Positions 44,845-58,809 of a stretch of DNA of 64,000 bases are shown in pieces (within the stretch, counting starts at the first letter, position 1; the number at the start of each line of letters is the position of its first letter). Both the position numbers and the translations under genes were made by a program. The notes beneath the pieces were generated by a model. It had not been told where the DNA came from. It saw only the letters and a program-made list of their open reading frames with translations, and made no database searches. The DNA lies in assembly GCA_030603635.1 (NCBI GenBank), contig JAUVXK010000002.1:21155-85154 (forward strand), in the 5' to 3' direction. This DNA is from Burkholderiales bacterium. GTDB taxonomy: Bacteria; Pseudomonadota; Gammaproteobacteria; Burkholderiales; Burkholderiaceae_C.

Positions 44845-44874
44845 ATTATAGCCCTGCGCTCACTCCCTGGTCAA
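44845..44874 (-). promoter_or_regulatory. Sigma70-type promoter for rpsF-priB-rpsR-rplI
   Basis: Minus strand TTGACC-N18-TATAAT upstream of rpsF. Confidence 0.7.
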
Positions 44875-47012
44875 GAGCGATCCCCGCCCGTCGCACTTGG
44901 GGCTGCCTCCCTCCGCCCGGACGAGGTACGGCTGCCACCACGAACGTACTCGACAAGCGCCTGTACATGAGCCGGGGGGCGTGGGGTGAGCAGACTGACC
45001 AGCACCATCACGGCAAACCCCACGGGCACCCCGAACACGCCGGCCGAAACCGGCTGTATGCCCCACCACAGATCGACCGGGGCAGTGACCCCGAATGCCG
45101 AGCGCAGCCAGGGCTGGTTGACAACCATGTAGTAGAACGTGACGCCAAGACCACTGACCATGCCCGCGACGGCCGCCACTCCAGTGGTTCGCTTCCAGAA
45201 GATGCCCAATACCAGGGCCGGGAAGAATGCAGCCGCCGCGATGGAAAAAGCCGATGAGACCAGGAAAAGGATGTCCGCAGGCTTCTGAGCGGCCACGTAG
45301 GCGGCGGCCAGAGCCACCACGAGCAAAAGCACCTTCGAGATCGTGACCCGTCTCGCCGTGGCGGCATGGGGATCGATCATCTTGTAGTACAGGTCATGGC
45401 TGAGCGCATTGGCGATCGTCAACAGCAGTCCATCGGCCGTGGACAAGGCCGCAGCGAGCCCGCCTGCCGCGACCAAGCCGGCAATCACGTAGGGCAGCCC
45501 GGCAATCTCGGCGGTGGCCAGAACGATGATGTCCGCACCGATGGAGATCTCGTTGAGCTGCAGAATGCCGTCTCGGTTGACATCCTGCACCCGCAGCAGG
45601 TCGGCATCGACACGGCTCCAGGCCGCCACCCAGGCCGGCAACTGGTCGAAAGGGGTGCCGACGAGCACGTTGAAGACTTCGAACTTGACCAGCACCGCCA
45701 GGGCCGGTGCGGTGAAGTAGAGCAGGCTGATGAACAGGAGCGACCAGGTCACCGACTGCCTCGCCTGGCGCACATCGGGCACGGTGTAGTACCGCATCAG
45801 GATATGGGGCAGTGCAGCAGTGCCCAGCATGAGGCAGAACACCAATGCCAGGAAGTTGCGCCGGGATTCGGTGAAGACCTGGCGCTCATCCGGACTGCCA
45901 CCGGGATCTCCCGCGAAGGGCTGGGCATGGGGCAGCATCCCATTGAGCGGTTTCGATTTGGCCTGGGCCTCCGCGAGCTGACGCGTCCAGAGCTCGCGTG
46001 CACTGCCCTCGTCGCGCGGCATGCGCGACAGTGCCTTTTCCGCTTCGGCAATCTCGGAGGCCATGCCGTTGAAGTCGCGCAAGGTGTCGAGATGCTGTTC
46101 GGCCATTTGGCGGTCGTGCAACAGCGCAGTGCCGGGATCCTGCAACTTGTCCTCCAGGATGCCTGCCTGGTGCAGGTAGATCATGCGCACCTGAATCTCG
46201 GCCTCGTCCTCAGTCAGTTCGCGCTCGCGCTCGGTGATTTTCTGGAGTTGCTGGCCGTAGATCAGTTGCGGAATGGGAAAGTCGGTCTGCTTGATCGACA
46301 ACCAGACCACCGGCAGCATGTAGGCGATGATGAGGACGATGTACTGCGCCACCTGGGTCCACGTCACGGCACGCATGCCCCCGAGGAAGGAACACACCAG
46401 GATGCCGCCCAGCCCCAGGAACACGCCGACTTCGAACGCCACGCCAGTGAGCCGGGAGGTGATCAGCCCCACCCCATAGATCTGGGCGACCACGTAGATG
46501 AACGAGCACAGGATGGCAGCACCGATGCCCAGCAGCCGTGGCCAGTGCCCGCCGTAACGCTCGCCCAGGAAGTCGGGGATGGTGAACTGGCCGAAACGCC
46601 GCAGATACGGTGCGAGCAGCAGCGCGACCAGGCAATAGCCGCCGGTCCAGCCCAGCACGTAAGCCAGCCCGCTGTAGCCCTGTACATAGAGCGTACCCGC
46701 CAACCCGATGAACGAGGCGGCCGACATCCAGTCGGCCCCGGTGGCCATGCCGTTGTACACCGCCGGCACCCGCCGCCCTGCCACGTAGTACTCGACCGGG
46801 TCGATGGTGCGGCTCATGATGCCGATCGCGGCATAGACCCCGATGGTGGCGAGCAGGAAGATCATCCCGATCCACTCGCGTGGCAGGCCGAGCTGCTCCA
46901 GCAGGGCCAGCACACCGACGAACAGGAAAAACGCACCGGTGAACCAGAAGTACACCCGGTCCAGCTGGCGCCGGAAGACCTGCTGGGTGCGCGGGGTCAT
47001 GTCATGGGCCAT
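44871..47012 (-). CDS. SSS-family sodium:solute symporter (VC_2705-like), long form with extra loop insertion
   Basis: GMATGADWMSAASFIGLAGTLY, GGLAAALSTADGLLLTIANALSHDLYYK; 713 aa; preceded by DUF4212 gene. Confidence 0.9.
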   Translation of the reverse strand: MAHDMTPRTQQVFRRQLDRVYFWFTGAFFLFVGVLALLEQLGLPREWIGMIFLLATIGVYAAIGIMSRTIDPVEYYVAGRRVPAVYNGMATGADWMSAASFIGLAGTLYVQGYSGLAYVLGWTGGYCLVALLLAPYLRRFGQFTIPDFLGERYGGHWPRLLGIGAAILCSFIYVVAQIYGVGLITSRLTGVAFEVGVFLGLGGILVCSFLGGMRAVTWTQVAQYIVLIIAYMLPVVWLSIKQTDFPIPQLIYGQQLQKITERERELTEDEAEIQVRMIYLHQAGILEDKLQDPGTALLHDRQMAEQHLDTLRDFNGMASEIAEAEKALSRMPRDEGSARELWTRQLAEAQAKSKPLNGMLPHAQPFAGDPGGSPDERQVFTESRRNFLALVFCLMLGTAALPHILMRYYTVPDVRQARQSVTWSLLFISLLYFTAPALAVLVKFEVFNVLVGTPFDQLPAWVAAWSRVDADLLRVQDVNRDGILQLNEISIGADIIVLATAEIAGLPYVIAGLVAAGGLAAALSTADGLLLTIANALSHDLYYKMIDPHAATARRVTISKVLLLVVALAAAYVAAQKPADILFLVSSAFSIAAAAFFPALVLGIFWKRTTGVAAVAGMVSGLGVTFYYMVVNQPWLRSAFGVTAPVDLWWGIQPVSAGVFGVPVGFAVMVLVSLLTPRPPAHVQALVEYVRGGSRTSSGRREAAPSATGGDRS

Positions 47013-47277
47013 GGTGCTCCTCGGTGTCCGGGGGGTCGACCACGCCGTAGCGCGCGTCCAGCCGGTTCACGTACCAGGCGTAGACCGCGATGATGAGCCC
47101 GTACACGATCAGGCCGCCCTGTGCCGCGACCCAGTAGCTGAAGGGCCAGCCGAAGAAGGCGAAATCGAGGTCGCGGGCGAAATAACTGATCACGAAGGAC
47201 ACCACGAACCAGACCAGCAGCAAGCCTGCCGTGATCGTCTGGACCCGGCGCCAGTACCTGCGTGGGTCGCCCTTCAT
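47002..47277 (-). CDS. DUF4212 small membrane subunit of solute symporter
   Basis: 91 aa, two TM, FFGWPFSYWVAAQGGLIVYGLIIAVYAWYVNRLD; overlaps symporter start by 11 bp. Confidence 0.85.
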   Translation of the reverse strand: MKGDPRRYWRRVQTITAGLLLVWFVVSFVISYFARDLDFAFFGWPFSYWVAAQGGLIVYGLIIAVYAWYVNRLDARYGVVDPPDTEEHHGP

Positions 47278-47867: not shown

Positions 47868-48172
47868 CGGCACGACTCCATGCCCAGATCGAGGCACAAG
47901 CCGATTTTGCCGAACAGTGCGGCCAGCCACACCAGCAGCAGCAGGCAGAACGCGACCAGCGGCCAATGCGCTCGCGGCACCCTACGCGGCGTGACCCACG
48001 AGGCCACCACGACGAAGGGGCGCACCAGCGTGTCGAGCAACCACATAAAGGGGTTGCCCTGCCCGGCATTCGGTGCCAGACGCCGCAACCATGCGGACAG
48101 CACCCAGCGGCCCAGCAAGGCAAGCAGCGCGATCTCAGCGATCAGTTTGGTGGCGGTGACGAACAAGAACAT
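47864..48172 (-). CDS. Small integral membrane protein, possibly YggT-like
   Basis: 102 aa, two to three hydrophobic segments, NPFMWLLDTLVRPFVVVASWVTPRRVP; start at MFLFVTATKL. Confidence 0.6.
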   Translation of the reverse strand: MFLFVTATKLIAEIALLALLGRWVLSAWLRRLAPNAGQGNPFMWLLDTLVRPFVVVASWVTPRRVPRAHWPLVAFCLLLLVWLAALFGKIGLCLDLGMESCR

Positions 48173-48258
48173 GACAGACCTGTACCCGTAGCTTAACAAG
48201 CACGATGCCGTTGCCGCGTGCGTGTACCATGTCCCCATCCAGGGCCCCCACCACGACC

Positions 48259-49716
48259 ATGCCTGACCAGCCGCAACCCCGCAGTGCCGACAACTACGTC
48301 AACCTGATCACGACCCCCGTGAAGGCCTTGCTCAAGCGGCCTGCGGTGTCCCTGCCCCCCAGCACGCCGATCATCGAGGCGGCACAGATCATGCGGGACC
48401 AGCGCGTCTCCTCGGTGCTCATCGTGCAGGATGGCGTGCTGTTCGGCCTCATCACGGACCGCGACCTGCGCAACCGGGTGGTTGCGGCAGGCATGGACAC
48501 GCAGCGGCCGATCATGGAGATCGCCACGTTGGCGCCCATGACCATCGACATCCACCGCCACGCATTCGACGCCCTCCTGATGATGGCCCGGCACAACATC
48601 CACCACGTGCCCGTCATGCAGGGAACCGATGTGGCCGGCATGATCACCAGCACCGACCTGACCGAGCAGCAAAGCAACTCGGCGGTGTACCTGGCCGGCG
48701 CGATCTACAAACAGACTTCCGTGGCCGGACTGGTCGAAGCCAGCACCCGCATCAAGCGGTTGCAGCAGAACCTTGCCGCTGCCGAAGCCAGCGCCTACAG
48801 CACCGGGCATATCGTGTCCGCCATCACCGACGCCCTGACGTCGCGCCTGCTGCAGCTCGGAGAACTGGAGTTCGGTCCGCCACCGGTGGACTACGCCTGG
48901 GTGGCTGCTGGCTCGCAAGGGCGCAACGAGCAGACCGCGAAGTCCGATCAGGACAACTGCATGATCATCGACGATGCCTATGACGAGCAGGCCCATGGTG
49001 ACTACTTCCGGCAGCTCTCGCGCTTCGTGTGTGACGGCCTCAACGAATGCGGCTATGTGTACTGCCCCGGTGAAATGATGGCCATGACGGACGAGTGGCG
49101 CCAGCCGCTGCGCAAATGGCGTCAGTACTTTCACCGCTGGATCGATCAGCCCGAGCCCAAGTCGCTGATGCTGACCTGCGTGTTTTTCGACCAACGCTTC
49201 GTGTACGGCAAGCAGGAACTGCTCGACAGCCTGCGTGCCGAGGTACTGGAACGCACCCGCACGCAGCGTCTGTTCCTCGCCTTCATGGTGGGCAATGCCC
49301 TGACCCACCAGCCGCCACTGAACTGGTGGGGCAGCCTCTCGCTCATCCGGGGAGGCGAACACACCGGCACCATCGACCTCAAGCACACGGGCATCGTCCC
49401 CATCATCGATCTGGCGCGGGTGTACGCCCTGGCTGGAGGCTGCGCGGCGGTCAACACGCGGGAACGACTGGAAAATGCGGCCGCCAGCGGGGAGATCACC
49501 GAACAGCGCGTGCGCGACCTGCTCGACGCGCTGGAATACCTGAGCACGCTGCGCATACAGCACCAGGCCCGGCGGATGTCGGATGGTCACGCCGCCGACA
49601 ACTACCTGCGGCCCAGCGAGCTGTCGAATTTCGAGCGCGGACACCTTAAGGAAGCGTTCGCGGTGGTCAAGAGCCTGCAAGGGGTTCTGGCCAACCGCTA
49701 CCCGATGAGTCGCTGA
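48259..49716 (+). CDS. CBS-pair / DUF294 nucleotidyltransferase-like protein
   Basis: Two CBS motifs (VSSVLIVQDGVLFGLITDRDLRNRV; HHVPVMQGTDVAGMITSTDL), NTase motif AAGSQGRNEQTAKSDQDN. Confidence 0.85.
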   Translation: MPDQPQPRSADNYVNLITTPVKALLKRPAVSLPPSTPIIEAAQIMRDQRVSSVLIVQDGVLFGLITDRDLRNRVVAAGMDTQRPIMEIATLAPMTIDIHRHAFDALLMMARHNIHHVPVMQGTDVAGMITSTDLTEQQSNSAVYLAGAIYKQTSVAGLVEASTRIKRLQQNLAAAEASAYSTGHIVSAITDALTSRLLQLGELEFGPPPVDYAWVAAGSQGRNEQTAKSDQDNCMIIDDAYDEQAHGDYFRQLSRFVCDGLNECGYVYCPGEMMAMTDEWRQPLRKWRQYFHRWIDQPEPKSLMLTCVFFDQRFVYGKQELLDSLRAEVLERTRTQRLFLAFMVGNALTHQPPLNWWGSLSLIRGGEHTGTIDLKHTGIVPIIDLARVYALAGGCAAVNTRERLENAAASGEITEQRVRDLLDALEYLSTLRIQHQARRMSDGHAADNYLRPSELSNFERGHLKEAFAVVKSLQGVLANRYPMSR

Positions 49717-49733
49717 AGCGGCAGACACGACCA

Positions 49734-51929
49734 TCAGTACTTGATGCGGGCGTAGAAAGTCTGCTGGGCGGCATGCATGGCCTGGCCAAGCGTGTGGATC
49801 CCTTTTTCCGCCAGCAGCGGGATCAGCTTCAGGAACACCTCGGCCGTGACCATGGCGTCCCCCATCGCCGTGTGGCGCCCGATGACCGTGACGTTGAAGC
49901 GCTCGGCAATCGCTTCCAGACGGTGCGAATCCTGGTTCGGGTGGATCAGCGCGGACAACAGGAGCGTATCGAGCACGGGCTGGTCGAAGACGACGCCGGT
50001 GCGCTTTTCCTTGAGCTGCAGGAAGCGCATGTCGAACGCGGCGTTGTGGGCCACCAGCACGGTGTCCTGGGCGAAAGCGTGGAACGCCGGAAGCACATCG
50101 GTGATGCGGGGTTGCCCCGCGACCATTTCGGGGGTGATGCCGTGGATGGGAATGGACGCGGGCGGAATCGGGCGCTGCGGATCCACCAGTTGCTCGAAGC
50201 ACTCTTGCCGCAGCAACTTGCCGTTCACGATGCGGGTGGCGCCGATCTGGATGATCTCGTCACCCTGGGCCGGGTTGAGACCGGTGGTCTCGGTGTCGAA
50301 CACGGTATACGACAGTTCGGCCAACGGCATGTCTTCCAGGGCTCGGCTGCGGGCGGTGGTGCGGAAGAGGTCGAAATCGTAGTACTCGGGGCGGCTTTCG
50401 CTGCGCACGAAGGCGGCGCTGTCGAGCTGCTCCTGAGGAACCGCCGAGGGCAGCAGGAAACGGAAGAAGGCTTGGTGGCTGGCCCGGTCCCGCTCGAACC
50501 AGAAGGCACCACCGTGCCGCTCCACCACGTCGCGCACCGACAGCGCCGACACCTCCTGCCCGAACCGCATGGAATCCATCTCCCAGCCCATGACCGTTTC
50601 CGTGCTGATGGCCGGACCGTTCCAGAGCAGATCGAGCTCGACCTTCTGCCGCCCCTTCGACGACGGGCGCAGGCGCAACCCGACGAAACGGATGTCGAAC
50701 GCCTCACGCAGTCGGGCACTGAGATAGACCAGCACCTGCAGGATGGAAAAGCTCTCGATGCGCAGCCACAGGTGGCCGTCAACACCCATTTCGGACACGG
50801 GAATGTCCAGGGCTTCCTCGATGCGCCGGCTCGCCGCCGCGACCAGGTCGGCTCCCAGCATGTCCTCCATGGGCCAGCGCGTCTTGAGCCCGTCTGCCGA
50901 CTCGTGCATCAGCCGCTGCACCCGCTCCGACATGCCCAGAACCTCCTCTCGGACCACAGCGAGAAAGCGTTCGCGCATGGCGGGGTCCAGGTCGGGGTAG
51001 TCGAGCATTTCCAGCGCGGCCTTGATGTTGGCCAGCGAGGCCCGGCTGCCTTCCGTCAGCCCGAGCAGCAGCTGCTCTCGGGCGGATTCGTCTTCGAACT
51101 CCCGGGTGATGTTTTCCAGCATCAGCACGAAGCCGGCAAGACGGGCGGTGGCGTCGCCCTCCTCGCTCCCCCCTGCCGCGCGCACGGGCGCCATCTGCAC
51201 CCGCAACAACTGTCCGGATCGCGTGGTGGTGACGAACTGAGCCGTGGGGTGAGCGGCGCCTCGTAGCAACCGCTGTTGCACGCTTTCCAGCGCATGGGCC
51301 ACGAGCCGGCGTTCAAACACGGTGTAGATGGATCGGCCCAGGCCGATCAGCTCGGCACCGTCGGCCAGCCGCGGGGCCTGGGACATGGCGCGAAACTGCA
51401 TGCGGGCCCGGTTGTTGTACAGGAGAATCCGCCCGTCAAGGTTGCAGACCACCACACTTTGCGTCAGTTCCGACATCAGCGCTGCCAGACGCGATTTTTC
51501 CTGTTCGATGTTCTCGGCCGCCTCCCGGACCTTGGCATCCATCTGCCGGCGCAACTCCTCGCGCTGACCCACGAGCTGGTTGAACAGCTTGGCCAGCTCA
51601 CGGGTCTCGACGTTGCCCTTGGGCCGCAGTTCCCGCACCACGTCGGTCCGCAACAGAACGCGCGCCTCCTCGGCCAGCTGGACCGACGGCGTGACCCAGT
51701 GGTCGAACCAACGCTTCAGCCCCCAGGCGATCGCGCCCATGCCCATGCCCCAGGTCAGGGAAACCAGCACCAGGCGATCCCCGAGCAAGATCCAGGCGGC
51801 ATCGCGGGCCTCGGCGTCGAGGGTCGAGCCGATCAGCCAGAAAGTCAGCAGCAGCCAGACCACCGACACGGCGGCTGCCACCCCGAGCAACCACCACAGA
51901 CGCCGGTCCGTACGACGGGGGACTGCCAT
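49734..51929 (-). CDS. Membrane-anchored PAS / degenerate histidine-kinase-like protein fused to DEDDh (DnaQ/PolIII epsilon-like) 3'-5' exonuclease
   Basis: Two N-terminal TM, PAS-like VVVCNLDGRILLYNNRARMQF, DHp-like region lacking canonical His, C-terminal exonuclease with FDTETTGL / AHNAAFDMRFL / HTAMGDAMVTAE. Confidence 0.83.
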   Translation of the reverse strand: MAVPRRTDRRLWWLLGVAAAVSVVWLLLTFWLIGSTLDAEARDAAWILLGDRLVLVSLTWGMGMGAIAWGLKRWFDHWVTPSVQLAEEARVLLRTDVVRELRPKGNVETRELAKLFNQLVGQREELRRQMDAKVREAAENIEQEKSRLAALMSELTQSVVVCNLDGRILLYNNRARMQFRAMSQAPRLADGAELIGLGRSIYTVFERRLVAHALESVQQRLLRGAAHPTAQFVTTTRSGQLLRVQMAPVRAAGGSEEGDATARLAGFVLMLENITREFEDESAREQLLLGLTEGSRASLANIKAALEMLDYPDLDPAMRERFLAVVREEVLGMSERVQRLMHESADGLKTRWPMEDMLGADLVAAASRRIEEALDIPVSEMGVDGHLWLRIESFSILQVLVYLSARLREAFDIRFVGLRLRPSSKGRQKVELDLLWNGPAISTETVMGWEMDSMRFGQEVSALSVRDVVERHGGAFWFERDRASHQAFFRFLLPSAVPQEQLDSAAFVRSESRPEYYDFDLFRTTARSRALEDMPLAELSYTVFDTETTGLNPAQGDEIIQIGATRIVNGKLLRQECFEQLVDPQRPIPPASIPIHGITPEMVAGQPRITDVLPAFHAFAQDTVLVAHNAAFDMRFLQLKEKRTGVVFDQPVLDTLLLSALIHPNQDSHRLEAIAERFNVTVIGRHTAMGDAMVTAEVFLKLIPLLAEKGIHTLGQAMHAAQQTFYARIKY

Positions 51930-51930
51930 T

Positions 51931-52299
51931 TCAGTTTTCCAGCATCTCGCGCACCTTTTCCACCAGCTCTCGAGTGGAAAAGGGCTTGGTCATGTAAGCG
52001 TTGGCGCCGAGGGCCAGCCCCTTGGCGACATCGGTATCCCGACCCTTGGCGGTGAGCATCAGAATGCGTGTGTCCTTCACTTGCTCGTGGGAACGGATCT
52101 CCTGGCAGACATCAAAGCCGGACTTGCGCGGCATCATCACGTCGAGCAGGACCAGGTCGGGGCGGTGGGCCAGGATGGCCTCGACAGCCTCCTGGCCGTC
52201 CCGGGCCAGCTTGACCTCGTAGCCCTCGCGCTTCATGAGAAATTCAAGCGAGATGAGGATGTTGGGCTCGTCGTCGGCAATCAGTATCGTGGCGCTCAT
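51931..52299 (-). CDS. Receiver-only (CheY-like) response regulator
   Basis: ILIADDEPN...[17 protein letters not shown]...LMLTAKGRD...YMTKPFS; 122 aa with no output domain. Confidence 0.92.
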
Positions 52300-55058
52300 G
52301 CGCGGTCTCCCGTGGCGTGGTCGGCCGACCCGTCGGCCGGCTCATGATTCAAAGGCAGATCGAAGCCGAAACAGGCCCCCCGATCGTCGGTGCTGCGCAA
52401 CCACATGCGACCGCCGAAGTGCTCGACGATCTGGCGGCTGATGGGCAGGCCAAGGCCAGTCCCCTGCGGACGGCTCAGGCCGTCGCCCCCCTGACGGAAC
52501 TTCTCGAAAACCAGTTCCTGCTCCTCTTGGGGCACCCCGGGACCATTGTCCCGCACCTCCACCACCACCCGACCGGTCTGAACGTACATCCGGACCTGCA
52601 CCACCCCGGTCTGCCGGGGCACGAACTTCGCGGCGTTGGAAATCAGGTTCAGCATGACCTGGGTCAGGCGGTCGGCATCGGCACGGATCGGCACCGGGTC
52701 ACCGGGCAGGTCCAGCTGCAGGCGGGCCTCTTTCTCGCGCAGCAATTCCGCCACTGTCTGCGCCGATTGCCGGACCAGCGCCACGAGGTCGAGCTCGGCG
52801 TTGTGCCATTCCGCATGACCGGACTCGATCTTCGCCATGTCGAGCACCTGATTGACGAGCCGGCTGAGTCGCTCGGATTCGGAAACGATGATGCCCAGGA
52901 AGCGCTTGCGATCCTCCAGCCGGATCTTAGGGTCTTCAAGGATCATTTCGGACAGGGCACGGATCGCCGTCAGCGGCGTGCGCAGCTCGTGCGTGACGGA
53001 GGACATGAAATCGTCTTTGAGCTTGTCCAGGCTCTTGAGCTGCTCGTTGGCGGCGCGCAGCTCCGCCGTGGCCAGTTCAAGCGAGCGCGACTTCTCTTCC
53101 AGCTCCTGGGAGTGGATGCGCAGCCGGGTGGCTTCTTCGAGGATTCCCATGACGTCATCGATATCGAGGGATTCTTCCTTTACCACCGAAGCCACCATGA
53201 CACGCGCCGACGCGCTGCCGATGGCACCCGCCAATTGCGTCTCGATGAACTGCACCAGCTGGGCATCGGCCTGGACCTGCTCCACGCGCTCGAGGCCTTG
53301 CCGGCGGGCATAGGCCTCGAGTTCGGACCGTGCCCGCTCCGGACCGAGGAAGCGCTCGGCCAGAGGCAGAAGATCGGCCAGGTGCGCCTGCCCACGCCAG
53401 AACACCGGGCGAGCCGAGCTGGTCCGGCCAAACACGTCGACAAACAGCAGCGCCTGGCTGGTTTCACGGGCCGACGGCGTCCGCCACAGCGACACCGCCA
53501 CATAGGCTCCGACGTTCAGCAGCATGCTCCAGAACAGCGAATGGGTGAGGTTGTCGAGACCGCCCAAGCCCAGGAATGCCTCGGGCCGAAGCCAGGGATT
53601 CCCGAACAGCCCATCGACCAGAAAGGCATCCGACATCCAACCCGACTTGGCGAGCGAAGGCAGCATGAGGGTGTAGGCCCACATGGCAAAACCGAGCACC
53701 AGTCCGGCCATCGCCCCTTGGCGGGTGCCGCCTTTCCAGTACATGCCGCCAAACAGCGCCGGGGCAAACTGAGCGACCGCCGCGAAACTGATGAGCCCGA
53801 TGCTGACCAGGGCGTAGGCCTCGCCAGCCAGGTGGTAGTAGGCATAGCCGAGCAACAGGATCAGCACGATGGCGGCACGCCGGATGTTGAGCAGCAGCCT
53901 CGTCAGATCCCGACCCTGCGCATGCATCCAGCGCTGCGTCCGCAGCAACACGGGCATGACCAGATCGTTGCACACCATGGTCGATACAGCGATCGCCTCC
54001 ACGATCACCATGCCCGTGGCCGCGGACAGTCCGCCTATGAAAGCCAGTAGGGCCAGTCCGTGCCAACCCTCGGCCAGGGGCAGCGACAGCACGAAAGTTT
54101 CGGGGTTCATCTGCCCGTCGCCAAAATAAAGTACCCCACCGAGCGCGATCGGCAACACGAACAGGTTGATCAGCAGCAGGTAAAGCGGAAACACCCAGGC
54201 CGCACGCTTGAGATGGCGCTCGTCCACGTTTTCCACCACCATCACCTGGAACTGCCGCGGCAGCAGGATCACCGAGAACATGGCCAGCAGGGTCAGTGTG
54301 AACCATTGGGCGTAGGCGAATGTGCGTCCCTCGCCCAGCTTGAGCAGGTTCGCCAGCTCCGGCACTTGCGCTGCCCGCTGGAAAATGTCGCCGACGCCGT
54401 TGAACAGGACATAAGACACAAACAGCCCCACCGCGAGGAAGGCCACCAGCTTGACCACCGACTCGAAGGCTATTGCCGCCACCATGCCCTCATGACGTTC
54501 GGTGCTGTCAAGGTGACGGGCACCGAACACCATGGTGAAGCCCGCCAGGGCCAGGGCCAGATAGAACGTGCTTTCCTGCCACCACGGCCGCGAGGACGCA
54601 AGCGGCTCGCCCAGCGGTGTGGTCAGCACGGCAAATCCCACCGAAATGCCCTTGAGCTGCAAAGCGATGTAGGGCACGATGCCGACGACCGTGATGAGTG
54701 TGACCAGTCCGGCCAGCAGGGGGCTTTTGCCGTACCGGCTGGAGATGAAGTCGGCGATCGAGGTGATGCGGTACGTTTTGGCAATGCGGATCATCTTGCG
54801 CAGCACCAGCCACGCCAGAATCATCGCCAGCATCGGCCCAAGGTAGATCGGCAGGAACCAGACACCGGAACTGGCCGCCCGCCCCACACTGCCGAAATAG
54901 GTCCACGCCGTGCAATAGACCGCCATGGACAGTGCATACACCCAGGGACTGCCGATGATCGATCGGCCCTGGCCGGCTCGCCAGTCGCCGTAATAGGCCA
55001 CGGCGAACAGCAGCAGCAGGTAAGCAAAGGAAACCGCTACGACAAGCAGGGGTGACAT
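52296..55058 (-). CDS. SSS-transporter-like sensor histidine kinase (CbrA/CrbS type)
   Basis: N-terminal SSS multi-TM domain, [18 protein letters not shown]-box, [10 protein letters not shown]-box, DNGPGVP / [10 protein letters not shown]-boxes; 4-bp overlap with the regulator. Confidence 0.9.
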
Positions 55059-55082
55059 GCAGACTCCGGTCCCTGAACCCGA

Positions 55083-55280
55083 TCAGTCGGGTGCCCGCTC
55101 CATGATCCAGGCCAGGGCCCCGATCAGGGCTGCCCAGAGCAAGAACAGGGCAAGGGGAAACAGCGGAATGCCCAGCCAGGTGACCTCCTGATCCCACAGG
55201 GCGATCAACGGAAAGTTGAACACCACGCCCGCTGCAAAGAACAGGGCCACCAGACGCTGGGACACCAGGGTTTCGTGCAT
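55083..55280 (-). CDS. Small (65 aa) membrane protein upstream of the sensor kinase
   Basis: METLVSQRLVALFFAAGVVFNFPLIALWDQEVTWLG-like two-TM peptide (MHETLVSQ start); same strand, 24 bp before the kinase start. Confidence 0.6.
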   Translation of the reverse strand: MHETLVSQRLVALFFAAGVVFNFPLIALWDQEVTWLGIPLFPLALFLLWAALIGALAWIMERAPD

Positions 55281-55399
55281 GGTTGTCTCCTTGATCACGA
55301 AGCGAGCCGGCCGGCTCCACGCCACGTCTGCAGCTATTGTGCACCGAACGGGCTTACCCCCCACTTACCGCCACCCCCTGCCAGACGGCATCGGCCAGC

Positions 55400-55422
55400 A
55401 AAAAGGGGCCACGAGGGCCCCT
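55400..55422 (-). terminator. Intrinsic terminator downstream of ppsA
   Basis: Minus strand AGGGGCC-ctcgt-GGCCCCTTTTTG. Confidence 0.75.
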
Positions 55423-55447
55423 GGAGATGCATCACAGGCGTGGTGCC

Positions 55448-57841
55448 TCAGGCACCGGCCAGCTTCTGCCAGGTGTCCACCACGCTGTCGGGGTTCAGGG
55501 AGATGGAGCTGATGCCCTCGTCCTTGAGCCACTGGGCGAAGTCGGGATGATCGCTGGGCCCCTGGCCGCAGATGCCGATGTACTTGCCCTGCGCACGGCA
55601 GGCCTGGATGGCCTGGCTGATGAGCGCCGTGACGGCCGGATCGCGCTCGTCGAAGTCGTGCGCCAGCAACTCCAGGCCGGAATCGCGGTCCAGGCCCAGG
55701 GTAAGCTGGGTCAGGTCGTTGGAGCCGATGGAGAAGCCGTCGAAGAACTGCAGGTACTGGGTGGCCAGGATGGCGTTGCTGGGGATCTCGCACATCATGA
55801 TGAGCTTGAGATCGTTCTCGCCCCGCTTGAGGCCGAACTTGCCCAGCAGATCGACCACGCGCTCGGCCTGCTTGAGGGTGCGCACGAAGGGCACCATGAC
55901 CTGCACGTTGGTCAGGCCCATGTCCTCGCGCACGCGCTTGAGCGCCTCGCACTCCATGGCAAAGGCTTCGCCGAACTCGTCGCTGATGTAGCGGGCTGCG
56001 CCCCGGAAGCCCAGCATCGGGTTTTCCTCGTCCGGCTCGTAGCGGCTGCCGCCGACCAGCTTGCGGTATTCGTTGCTCTTGAAGTCGGACAGACGCACGA
56101 TCACGGGCTTGGGCCAGAAGGCGGCGGCGATGGTGGCCACGCCTTCGGCCACCTTGTCCACGTAGAAGGCGCGCGGGCTGGCGTGGCCACGGGCCACGGA
56201 TTCCACGGCCTTCTTCAGGTCGGCGTCCACCTGGGGGTAGTCCAGGATGGCCTTGGGGTGCACACCGATGTTGTTGTTGATGATGAATTCCAACCGCGCC
56301 AGGCCAACGCCGCCATTCGGGATCTGGGCGAAGTCGAAGGCCAGTTGCGGGTTGCCCACGTTCATCATGATCTTCACGTCCAGTGCGGGCATCTCGCCGC
56401 GCTTGACTTCGGTGACCTCGGTTTCCAGCAGGCCGTCGTAGATGTGGCCGGTGTCGCCCTCGGCGCAGCTGACCGTGACCAGCGTGCCGTCCTTCAGGGC
56501 TTCGGTGGCGTCACCACAGCCCACCACGGCCGGGATGCCCAGTTCGCGCGCGATGATGGCGGCGTGGCAGGTGCGACCGCCCCGGTTGGTGACGATGGCG
56601 CTGGCGCGCTTCATCACGGGCTCCCAGTTGGGGTCGGTCATGTCGGTCACGAGCACGTCGCCAGGCTGGACCTTGTCCATTTCCGAGATGTTGTGCACCA
56701 GACGCACCGGACCGGTACCGATCTTCTGGCCGATGGCGCGGCCGGAAGCCAGCACAGCGCCCTTGCCCTTGAGCTTGTAGCGCATTTCCACCTGGCCAGC
56801 GGCCTGGCTCTTCACCGTTTCCGGGCGGGCCTGCAGGATGTAGAGCTGGCCGTCGTTGCCGTCCTTGCCCCACTCGATGTCCATGGGGCGGCCGTAGTGC
56901 TGCTCGATCACCAGCGCGTACTGGGCCAGCTGAAGCACATCGGTGTCGGTCAGGGAATAGCGGTTGCGCTGCTCCACCGGCACGTCCACGGTCTTCACCA
57001 GTTTCTTGCTGGCGGCCTTTTCTTCCGGGGTGCTGAACACCATCTGGATCAGCTTGCTGCCCAGATTGCGACGGATCAGCGCCTGCTTGCCCGCCTTGAG
57101 CATGGGCTTGTGCACGTAGAACTCGTCCGGGTTGACAGCACCCTGCACCACGGTTTCGCCAAGGCCGTAGCTGGAGGTGATGAACACCACGTCCTCGAAG
57201 CCACTTTCGGTGTCGATGGTGAACATCACCCCGGCCGCCCCCAGGTCAGAGCGCACCATGCGCTGAATACCGGCAGACAGGGCCACCTCGGCGTGGGTGA
57301 AGCCTTTGTGCACGCGGTAGCTGATGGCGCGGTCGTTGTACAGGCTGGCGAACACTTCCTTGATTTTGTGCAGGATTTCCTCGATGCCGTGCACGTTGAG
57401 GAAGGTCTCTTGCTGACCAGCGAAGGAGGCGTCTGGCAGGTCTTCGGCCGTGGCGGAGGAACGCACGGCGTAGGTGGCGGTGGTGCTACCGGCATTGAGC
57501 GTGTCGTAGGCCTCGTGGATGGCTTTTTCCAGATCGGCCGGGAACGGCTGGGCCTCGACCATGGCACGGATTTCGGCACCCACTTCGGCCAGAGCACGCA
57601 CGTCCTCGGTATCGAGCGCTTCGAGCTTGGCATGGATGCGTTCGTCCAGCCCATCGGCCTTGAGGAATTCGCGGAAGGCATGCGCCGTGGTGGCGAAACC
57701 GGTGGGCACGCGCACACCTTGCGGCAACTGCGAGATCATTTCGCCGAGGCTGGCGTTCTTGCCGCCGACGACCTCGACGTCGCTCATTCTGAGTTGTTCG
57801 AAGGGCACGACCAAGGCGGTCGGGCTGAACAGTTGGGACAT
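55448..57841 (-). CDS. ppsA: Phosphoenolpyruvate synthase
   Basis: [63 protein letters not shown]. Confidence 0.97.
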
Positions 57842-57999
57842 GGTAGGACTCCAAAGTTAAAAAACCGGGAGCCACCCCGCCACCACCACCCCGGTCGTTG
57901 TTCTGTTGTGGGAGGTGCCGGAAGCCAGGCGACAAATCAGGATAATGGGCGTGATTGTAGGTCCTGGCCTCCTCAAAGCCGCATTTGACGCCTCCCACC

Positions 58000-58809
58000 A
58001 TGCCCCATCGCACCGCTTTCTTCATCTCCGACGGCACCGGCATCACAGCCGAAACCTTTGCCAAGGCCATCCTGGCCCAGTTCGAGATCGACCCGAAACG
58101 CGTGCGGCTGCCCTTCATCGACGATCCCGACAAGGCTTACCAGGCGGTGCGCCAGATCAACCACGCCGCCGAGGTGGACGGCCGGCGACCGCTGGTGTTC
58201 ACCACGGTGGTGAACATGGACGTGCTGGCCGTGCTGCGCGCGGAATGCAAAGGCATGCTGATCGACATGTTCGGCACCTTCATCTCGCCGCTGGAACAGG
58301 AGCTGGGGATCAAGTCGAACCACCGGGTCGGCCGGTTTTCCGACGTGTCCAAGAGTCAGGAGTACCACGACCGGATCGAGGCCATCAACTTCACGCTCGA
58401 CCACGACGACGGGCAGACGAACGAAGACCTGGAAAAGTCGGACGTGATCCTGGTGGGGGTGAGCCGCAGTGGCAAGACGCCCACATCGCTCTACCTGGCC
58501 ATGCAGTTCGGTCTGAAGGCGTCGAACTACCCGCTGATCCCCGAGGATTTCGAGCGGCGCGCCCTGCCGCCTGCGCTCGTACCGTTCAAGAAGAAGCTGT
58601 TCGGGCTGACCATCGACCCCTCACGCCTGAGCGAAATCCGCAACGAGCGGCGCCCCAACTCCCGATATGCCAGTCTGCAGAACTGCCGCTACGAGGTGTC
58701 GGAAGCCGAAGCCATGATGCGGCGTGCGGGCATACGCACCCTCTCCACGACCACCAAGTCGATCGAGGAGATCGCCACCATCATCCGCCAGGACCTGCAC
58801 CTGGAGTGA
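58000..58809 (+). CDS. ppsR: PEP synthetase regulatory protein (bifunctional kinase/pyrophosphorylase, DUF299)
   Basis: RTAFFISDGTGITAETFAKAIL, GVSRSGKTPTSLYLA; divergent from ppsA. Confidence 0.95.
   Translation: MPHRTAFFISDGTGITAETFAKAILAQFEIDPKRVRLPFIDDPDKAYQAVRQINHAAEVDGRRPLVFTTVVNMDVLAVLRAECKGMLIDMFGTFISPLEQELGIKSNHRVGRFSDVSKSQEYHDRIEAINFTLDHDDGQTNEDLEKSDVILVGVSRSGKTPTSLYLAMQFGLKASNYPLIPEDFERRALPPALVPFKKKLFGLTIDPSRLSEIRNERRPNSRYASLQNCRYEVSEAEAMMRRAGIRTLSTTTKSIEEIATIIRQDLHLE

Follow-up and report, generated by a model that had tools for sequence, protein, structure and literature searches.

A putative membrane pseudo-histidine kinase joined to a DEDDh exonuclease, and its possible role as the output of a two-component system

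Only a few pseudo-histidine kinases of bacteria have been investigated, and DivL of Caulobacter serves as the model. DivL was found to bind DivK~P although it has no kinase activity, the signal running from the receiver to the pseudokinase, and the authors asked whether other systems use such reversed signal flow (PMC5361649). A second described system, CrbS/CrbR (MxtR/ErdR), brings together an SSS-type kinase and an ActP-type symporter, with a CBS-nucleotidyltransferase and an exonuclease in its regulon (PMC9927547, PMC5715377). In P. putida the operon of a soluble exonuclease and a CBS protein is a target of MxtR/ErdR, and deletion of the exonuclease slows growth on pyruvate, in connection with which mRNA decay was speculated on by the authors (PMC9927547).

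The locus described here shares traits with both systems. Its central gene encodes a 731-aa protein, given the working name EXO, that comprises a membrane part, a PAS domain, a pseudo-histidine kinase (pseudo-HK) and a DEDDh exonuclease; no description of this architecture was found in a literature search that covered few subscription journals. EXO resembles DivL in having a histidine kinase fold with the His replaced and a PAS domain upstream of the DHp (PMC5361649), as well as in its proposed ligand, a single-domain receiver; this would be a likeness of function, and orthology is not claimed. However, DivL has Tyr at the His position, while the EXO family has Glu or Asp, and DivL is without an enzyme and acts on another kinase, whereas EXO carries an exonuclease. 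The elements named above for CrbS/CrbR all have counterparts here, but there the regulator CrbR/ErdR is a transcription factor of LuxR type and the kinase CrbS is a hybrid, whereas the EXO-linked receiver lacks an output domain and the EXO-linked kinase lacks a receiver domain. The soluble 3′–5′ exonuclease of the PP_0353 type is likewise of DEDDh type and paired with a CBS-DUF294 protein, yet PP_0353, a putative PRK09146 relative, has neither PAS nor pseudokinase. Finally, the exonucleases of PolC, DinG and DnaQ (epsilon) have the same DEDDh fold (in the structural match EXO is 40% identical to the exonuclease of Thermotoga PolC), but EXO has no polymerase, helicase or replisome link and its exonuclease is joined to a membrane part, a PAS domain and a pseudo-HK.

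Domain layout and genetic surroundings of EXO

The coordinates in Table 1 refer to the window, that is the whole stretch of 64,000 nucleotides that was analysed. A sequence-only reading had proposed a 731-aa protein with two N-terminal transmembrane segments, a coiled-coil/HAMP-like linker and a PAS-like domain. Its position and length were borne out by an ORF running from 51929 to 49734 on the minus strand; read on the plus strand, the same interval contains no gene. As to the membrane segments, the first is clear and the second marginal by hydropathy, and the AF2 model places helices at residues 9-36 and 53-94. The linker corresponds to a long helix (coiled coil, residues 107-153) in the model, while HAMP was a visual resemblance that Pfam does not report. 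The PAS domain proved sound: it is modelled at residues 158-273 and matched weakly, below threshold, by PAS_4 (residues 155-256), and in homologues PAS_4 (L126) and PAS_9 (L114) exceed the Pfam cut-off. It is followed in the model by the DHp hairpin (275-309/316-348), the CA domain (355-495) and the exonuclease (541-722). Pfam finds a single strong domain, RNase_T (PF00929, residues 543-699, E 1.3e-37), and a HisKA trace at residues 295-341 that is far under the cut-off. The model was built on 56 relatives (mean pLDDT 79.7), and since its pTM is 0.37 the arrangement of the domains in it is unreliable. Compared with the PDB by Foldseek, EXO matched best the PAS-kinases WalK (model 9a5d) and 4i5s (E 2.5e-20 and 3.7e-17), and after these the exonucleases of PolC, DinG and DnaQ (epsilon).

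Table 1. Features of EXO and of the neighbouring genes, with positions in the window.
Feature	Coordinates	Strand	Basis
VC_2705-family sodium/solute (acetate-type, ActP-like) symporter	44871..47012	-	TIGR03648, 785.6 bits, cut-off 320.75
DUF4212 symporter small subunit	47002..47277	-	PF13937 above cut-off
CBS-domain/DUF294 nucleotidyltransferase, convergent with EXO, 17 bp apart	48205..49716	+	CBS, DUF294, DUF294_C (Pfam)
EXO, 731 aa, ATG start	49734..51929	-	ORF, Pfam, AF2, Foldseek
EXO DEDDh exonuclease, residues 541-722: D545, E547, D633, H686, D691	49764..50309	-	RNase_T, invariance
EXO conserved linker SRPEYYDFDLF, residues 512-522, ahead of exonuclease	50364..50396	-	alignment
EXO degenerate CA (HATPase-like), residues 355-495, W436 replacing the ATP-binding Asp	50445..50867	-	hhalign; W in 141/142
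EXO pseudo-DHp hairpin, residues 275-348, proposed receiver docking site	50886..51107	-	hhalign to neighbouring histidine kinase, AF2
EXO E293 at the phospho-acceptor His position	51051..51053	-	never His in 142 homologues
EXO PAS domain, residues 155-273	51111..51467	-	sub-threshold PAS_4, homologues, AF2
EXO N-terminal membrane helices, residues 9-94	51648..51905	-	hydropathy, AF2 helices 9-36 and 53-94
Receiver-only response regulator of 122 aa with Asp53, upstream of EXO and separated from it by 1 base	51931..52299	-	Response_reg over whole protein
SSS-type sensor histidine kinase, 920 aa, 4-bp overlap with receiver gene	52296..55058	-	Pfam
Small membrane protein upstream of sensor kinase	55083..55364	-	in 54/58 beta/gamma loci with enough flank
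PEP synthase	55448..57841	-	named by eye
PSRP-like regulator	57985..58809	+	named by eye

The linker ahead of the exonuclease is strongly conserved as RPE-[YH]DF-[DS]L[FM]. It includes residues that are invariant in the 56-sequence alignment, 198 of the 200 ORFs of the family have a [YHF]DF core near this place, and the YDF core outlasts the deletion of the pseudo-kinase. A β-clamp-like reading of this segment (DFDLF against QL[SD]LF) was dropped because the first position is not Gln.

The sequence-only reading had overlooked the receiver, the sensor kinase and the nucleotidyltransferase next door. The receiver is acidic, with Asp53 and the T/K residues conserved in 103 homologues, and its C-terminal tail does not exceed 14 residues across 102 homologous loci. 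In the sensor kinase His690 and the ATP boxes are intact, with motifs conserved in 70 homologues; HisKA and HATPase_c pass their Pfam cut-offs and SSF is borderline (21.1 bits, cut-off 22.8). The small membrane protein upstream is possibly a small subunit of this kinase. On the other side of EXO, the CBS-DUF294 nucleotidyltransferase contains the GSxGRxE...DxD motif. Together with the symporter, the DUF4212 protein, and the PEP synthase and its regulator beside the operon, it makes up a setting that fits the use of acetate or pyruvate. Over 48100-55600 a scan for sigma-70 promoters found none and terminators were at chance level; a CrbR/ACTU-like promoter motif had two matches in the window, neither near the EXO operon, and a general Pfam scan gave no match to a STAC domain between symporter and kinase.

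Two further observations concern the neighbours. At 713 aa the symporter is longer than the family model (about 550); residue 250 is followed by a long hydrophilic insert, and at about residues 477-488 there is an EF-hand-like loop, DVNRDGILQLNE, possibly a calcium-binding symporter loop. The PEP synthase gene adjoins the operon in several Hydrogenophaga relatives too.

The kinase-like part

The histidine kinase fold of EXO, DHp followed by CA, was recovered by hhalign, AF2 and Foldseek alike. A profile of residues 265-500 aligns with the neighbouring true kinase with a probability of 98.8% (E 4.6e-17), pairing the HELRTPL of that kinase with EGSRASL of EXO, and the CA part alone aligns with a probability of 95 (E 3.8e-8). 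Among the 142 relatives whose DHp is intact, the phospho-acceptor position is occupied by E in 107, by D in 19, by Q in 5, by A in 4, by P in 4, by T in 2 and by M in 1, thus by an acidic residue in 126 and by His in none; the absence of the acceptor His, first remarked in EXO itself, extends to the whole family. The CA domain had been credited with weak N and G boxes, which was right as to degeneracy but understated it, for the N box lacks its consensus Asn, GxGLG is absent, and the Asp of DxGxG is Trp in 141 of the 142 relatives. The family (n = 142) has neither a conserved acceptor His nor a functional ATPase, the two features whose presence was to speak against a lost kinase. A phosphatase-type HExxT/N motif is lost as well, to judge by the sequence. 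With no acceptor His and no ATP boxes, the kinase part is, on its residues, dead. What remains conserved in the intact pseudo-DHp is an acidic residue at 293 and a near-invariant R296. A His one helical turn upstream (position 289) occurs in 66 of 142 relatives and was considered as a displaced phospho-acceptor; this candidate was rejected, as the residue is Leu in EXO, varies in the family and is not at the HisKA position.

Receiver and pseudo-DHp hairpin among relatives

In 102 of the 108 homologous loci of the first round the receiver gene adjoins that of the exonuclease. It lies directly upstream, the two genes overlapping or almost touching. Paracoccus denitrificans has the genes for the nucleotidyltransferase, a small protein, the kinase, the receiver and the exonuclease in succession on one strand. 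More distant families have the kinase on the downstream side, with the receiver still directly upstream of the exonuclease gene. No natural fusion of receiver and exonuclease in a single ORF was found among the family ORFs. Apart from this, the exonuclease genes of Rhodoferax antarcticus (L057) and Piscinibacter aquaticus (L077) look frameshifted; in the latter a sequencing error is possible, since its kinase gene is also in pieces.

Informative variation occurs in one alphaproteobacterial family (f55), apparently Rhodobacteraceae-like, where some EXO homologues retain the whole pseudo-kinase, others have a shortened DHp hairpin, and a third form has lost both DHp and CA; this last is a 2TM-PAS-exonuclease protein of about 470 aa found in 43 loci. 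When duplicate, frameshifted and contig-edge loci are left out, a receiver gene stands next to the exonuclease gene in 138 of the 142 loci whose hairpin is intact, in none of the 8 with a shortened one and in none of the 43 without DHp and CA, that is in 0/51 loci with truncated or deleted DHp. The shortened hairpins lose their loop-side end, and in every one of them R296 is absent or substituted. In four loci (L045, L049, L068, L087) the pseudo-DHp is intact but the neighbouring receiver is absent, and a search of these genomes for a close receiver elsewhere found none. The sampling was biased, both by the nearest relatives that make up the first 80 loci and by the DHp-less query with which f55 was sampled, so the frequencies of the forms in nature cannot be read from these counts. 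On trees of the exonuclease domain from two programs, FastTree and IQ-TREE, the hairpin state changes six times and the receiver nine times. The receiver goes with the hairpin in all four independent pairs on strongly supported branches (six pairs, best tree); the sign test on the supported pairs gives p = 0.125 at best, as four pairs are too few to reach significance. For 138 receiver/DHp pairs (effective number 91), too few sequences for this purpose, direct-coupling analysis showed no enrichment at the known receiver interface, with 3 of the top 20 pairs there against 3.3 expected.

Could the hairpin be a dimerising scaffold only, with the PAS and membrane part sensing and the receiver acting on another product of the operon? 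The 2TM-PAS-exonuclease form, which does without DHp and CA, accords with this, and receiver and exonuclease could share an operon for regulatory reasons only. Such a scaffold leaves the distribution of the receiver over intact and damaged hairpins unexplained, however, and it does not account for the conservation of R296 and of the acidic residue at 293, so we consider it unlikely.

It is also conceivable that the pseudo-kinase binds the receiver but that the output of importance runs backwards: EXO would tune the sensor kinase, either by sequestering receiver~P or by forming a heterodimer with that kinase, the exonuclease being constitutive or separately controlled. Pseudokinases often modulate real kinases, as DivL acts on CckA (PMC5361649); DHp domains dimerise, and the sensor kinase gene is next door in most beta- and gammaproteobacterial loci. 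This seems improbable nevertheless, as the exonuclease is the constant part of the family, with invariant residues, and persists after the loss of DHp, CA and receiver, and as the f55 loci that have the receiver have no sensor kinase nearby. The f55 sensor kinase is encoded away from the exonuclease and, where coordinates were compared, has another receiver near it, also where the DHp is gone; for this reason the link from kinase to receiver is weaker in f55.

The reading we prefer, to which we assign a probability of about one half, is a two-component system with an enzyme as its output, in which the phosphorylated receiver would dock on the pseudo-DHp of EXO and gate the exonuclease in the setting of acetate/pyruvate use. 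The SSS-type sensor kinase would respond to a carboxylate or cell-energy cue and phosphorylate the receiver-only regulator at Asp53, a step supported in beta- and gammaproteobacteria by the shared operon. Receiver~P would then bind the pseudo-DHp hairpin as DivK~P binds DivL, and the hairpin, unable to take or give phosphate, would serve as its receptor; the co-loss of receiver and pseudo-DHp lends support to this docking step. Docking, together with input from the PAS domain, may alter the arrangement of coiled coil, DHp and CA and so switch the C-terminal exonuclease, which would act near the membrane, trimming single-stranded nucleic acid from its 3′ ends. The physiological setting would be the uptake and use of acetate/pyruvate-type acids. 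EXO had earlier been suggested to be a signal-gated nuclease; this gained indirect support, as a receiver-only regulator tracks the pseudo-DHp, and the gating itself stays putative. In f55, where the exonuclease persists without DHp or receiver, gating by the receiver appears dispensable.

Should the preferred reading hold, a nutrient signal would act on a nuclease directly and not through gene transcription, and the EXO family would add a second, broadly distributed case of reversed signal flow with an enzymatic output of its own, for which it also offers natural variants without the docking part. More tentative, at somewhat less than even odds, is the broader proposal of a widespread proteobacterial class of two-component systems in which a membrane nuclease is the direct output, a single-domain receiver is read by a dead histidine kinase joined to the DEDDh exonuclease, and nutrient signalling edits or degrades nucleic acid with transcription bypassed.

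The exonuclease, its relatives and its partner gene

The five catalytic residues of the exonuclease, all of which had been recognised at first reading, are invariant in 195 relatives, including those without the kinase-like part, and from this invariance the nuclease is predicted to be active. EXO is not Pol III epsilon, as far as family models and gene content can tell: it scores 111 bits against the epsilon equivalogs (cut-offs 196 for PRK05711 and 222.7 for TIGR01406), and the same genome has its own dnaQ (L003), which passes both with 334 and 303 bits. The view that EXO is not a replication proofreader agrees with these scores and with the lack of any tie to Pol III. The accompanying warning against the annotation was justified too, for the Paracoccus ferrooxidans homologue is labelled 'DNA polymerase III subunit epsilon', a misleading name that the present analysis corrects. 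A cyclic or dinucleotide substrate found no specific support, the nearest solved relatives being the exonucleases of PolC and DinG. If EXO acts as proposed, it would offer a mechanism for the link between exonuclease and growth on pyruvate in the MxtR/ErdR regulon (PMC9927547).

The CBS-nucleotidyltransferase gene lies by the exonuclease gene in 36 of 58 beta/gamma loci and in 44 of 45 f55 loci. This pairing would suit a writer and an eraser that share a substrate (the 3′ end of an RNA, or a protein that has been nucleotidylated), with the kinase-like part tuning the eraser. The genome has a second pairing with a CBS-nucleotidyltransferase, that of a soluble exonuclease from another subfamily, and P. 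putida has the pairing as an operon. Yet in P. putida only deletion of the exonuclease gave the pyruvate phenotype, and 22 of the 58 beta/gamma loci have no nucleotidyltransferase within the stretch examined; we therefore regard a writer/eraser pair as very unlikely. In f55 the CBS-DUF294 pairing holds with or without the pseudo-kinase.

EXO scores 70.7 bits against PRK09146 (cut-off 266) and fails it, whereas the soluble exonuclease of the same genome (L004) passes with 312 bits; the presence of this soluble pair implies that the membrane form, EXO, belongs to a different subfamily, perhaps with a related job. The pair itself (contig C143, 1297-3390), a PRK09146-type exonuclease and a CBS-DUF294 protein, resembles PP_0353/PP_0354, and inspected by eye its exonuclease has Glu at the third acidic residue, usually Asp.
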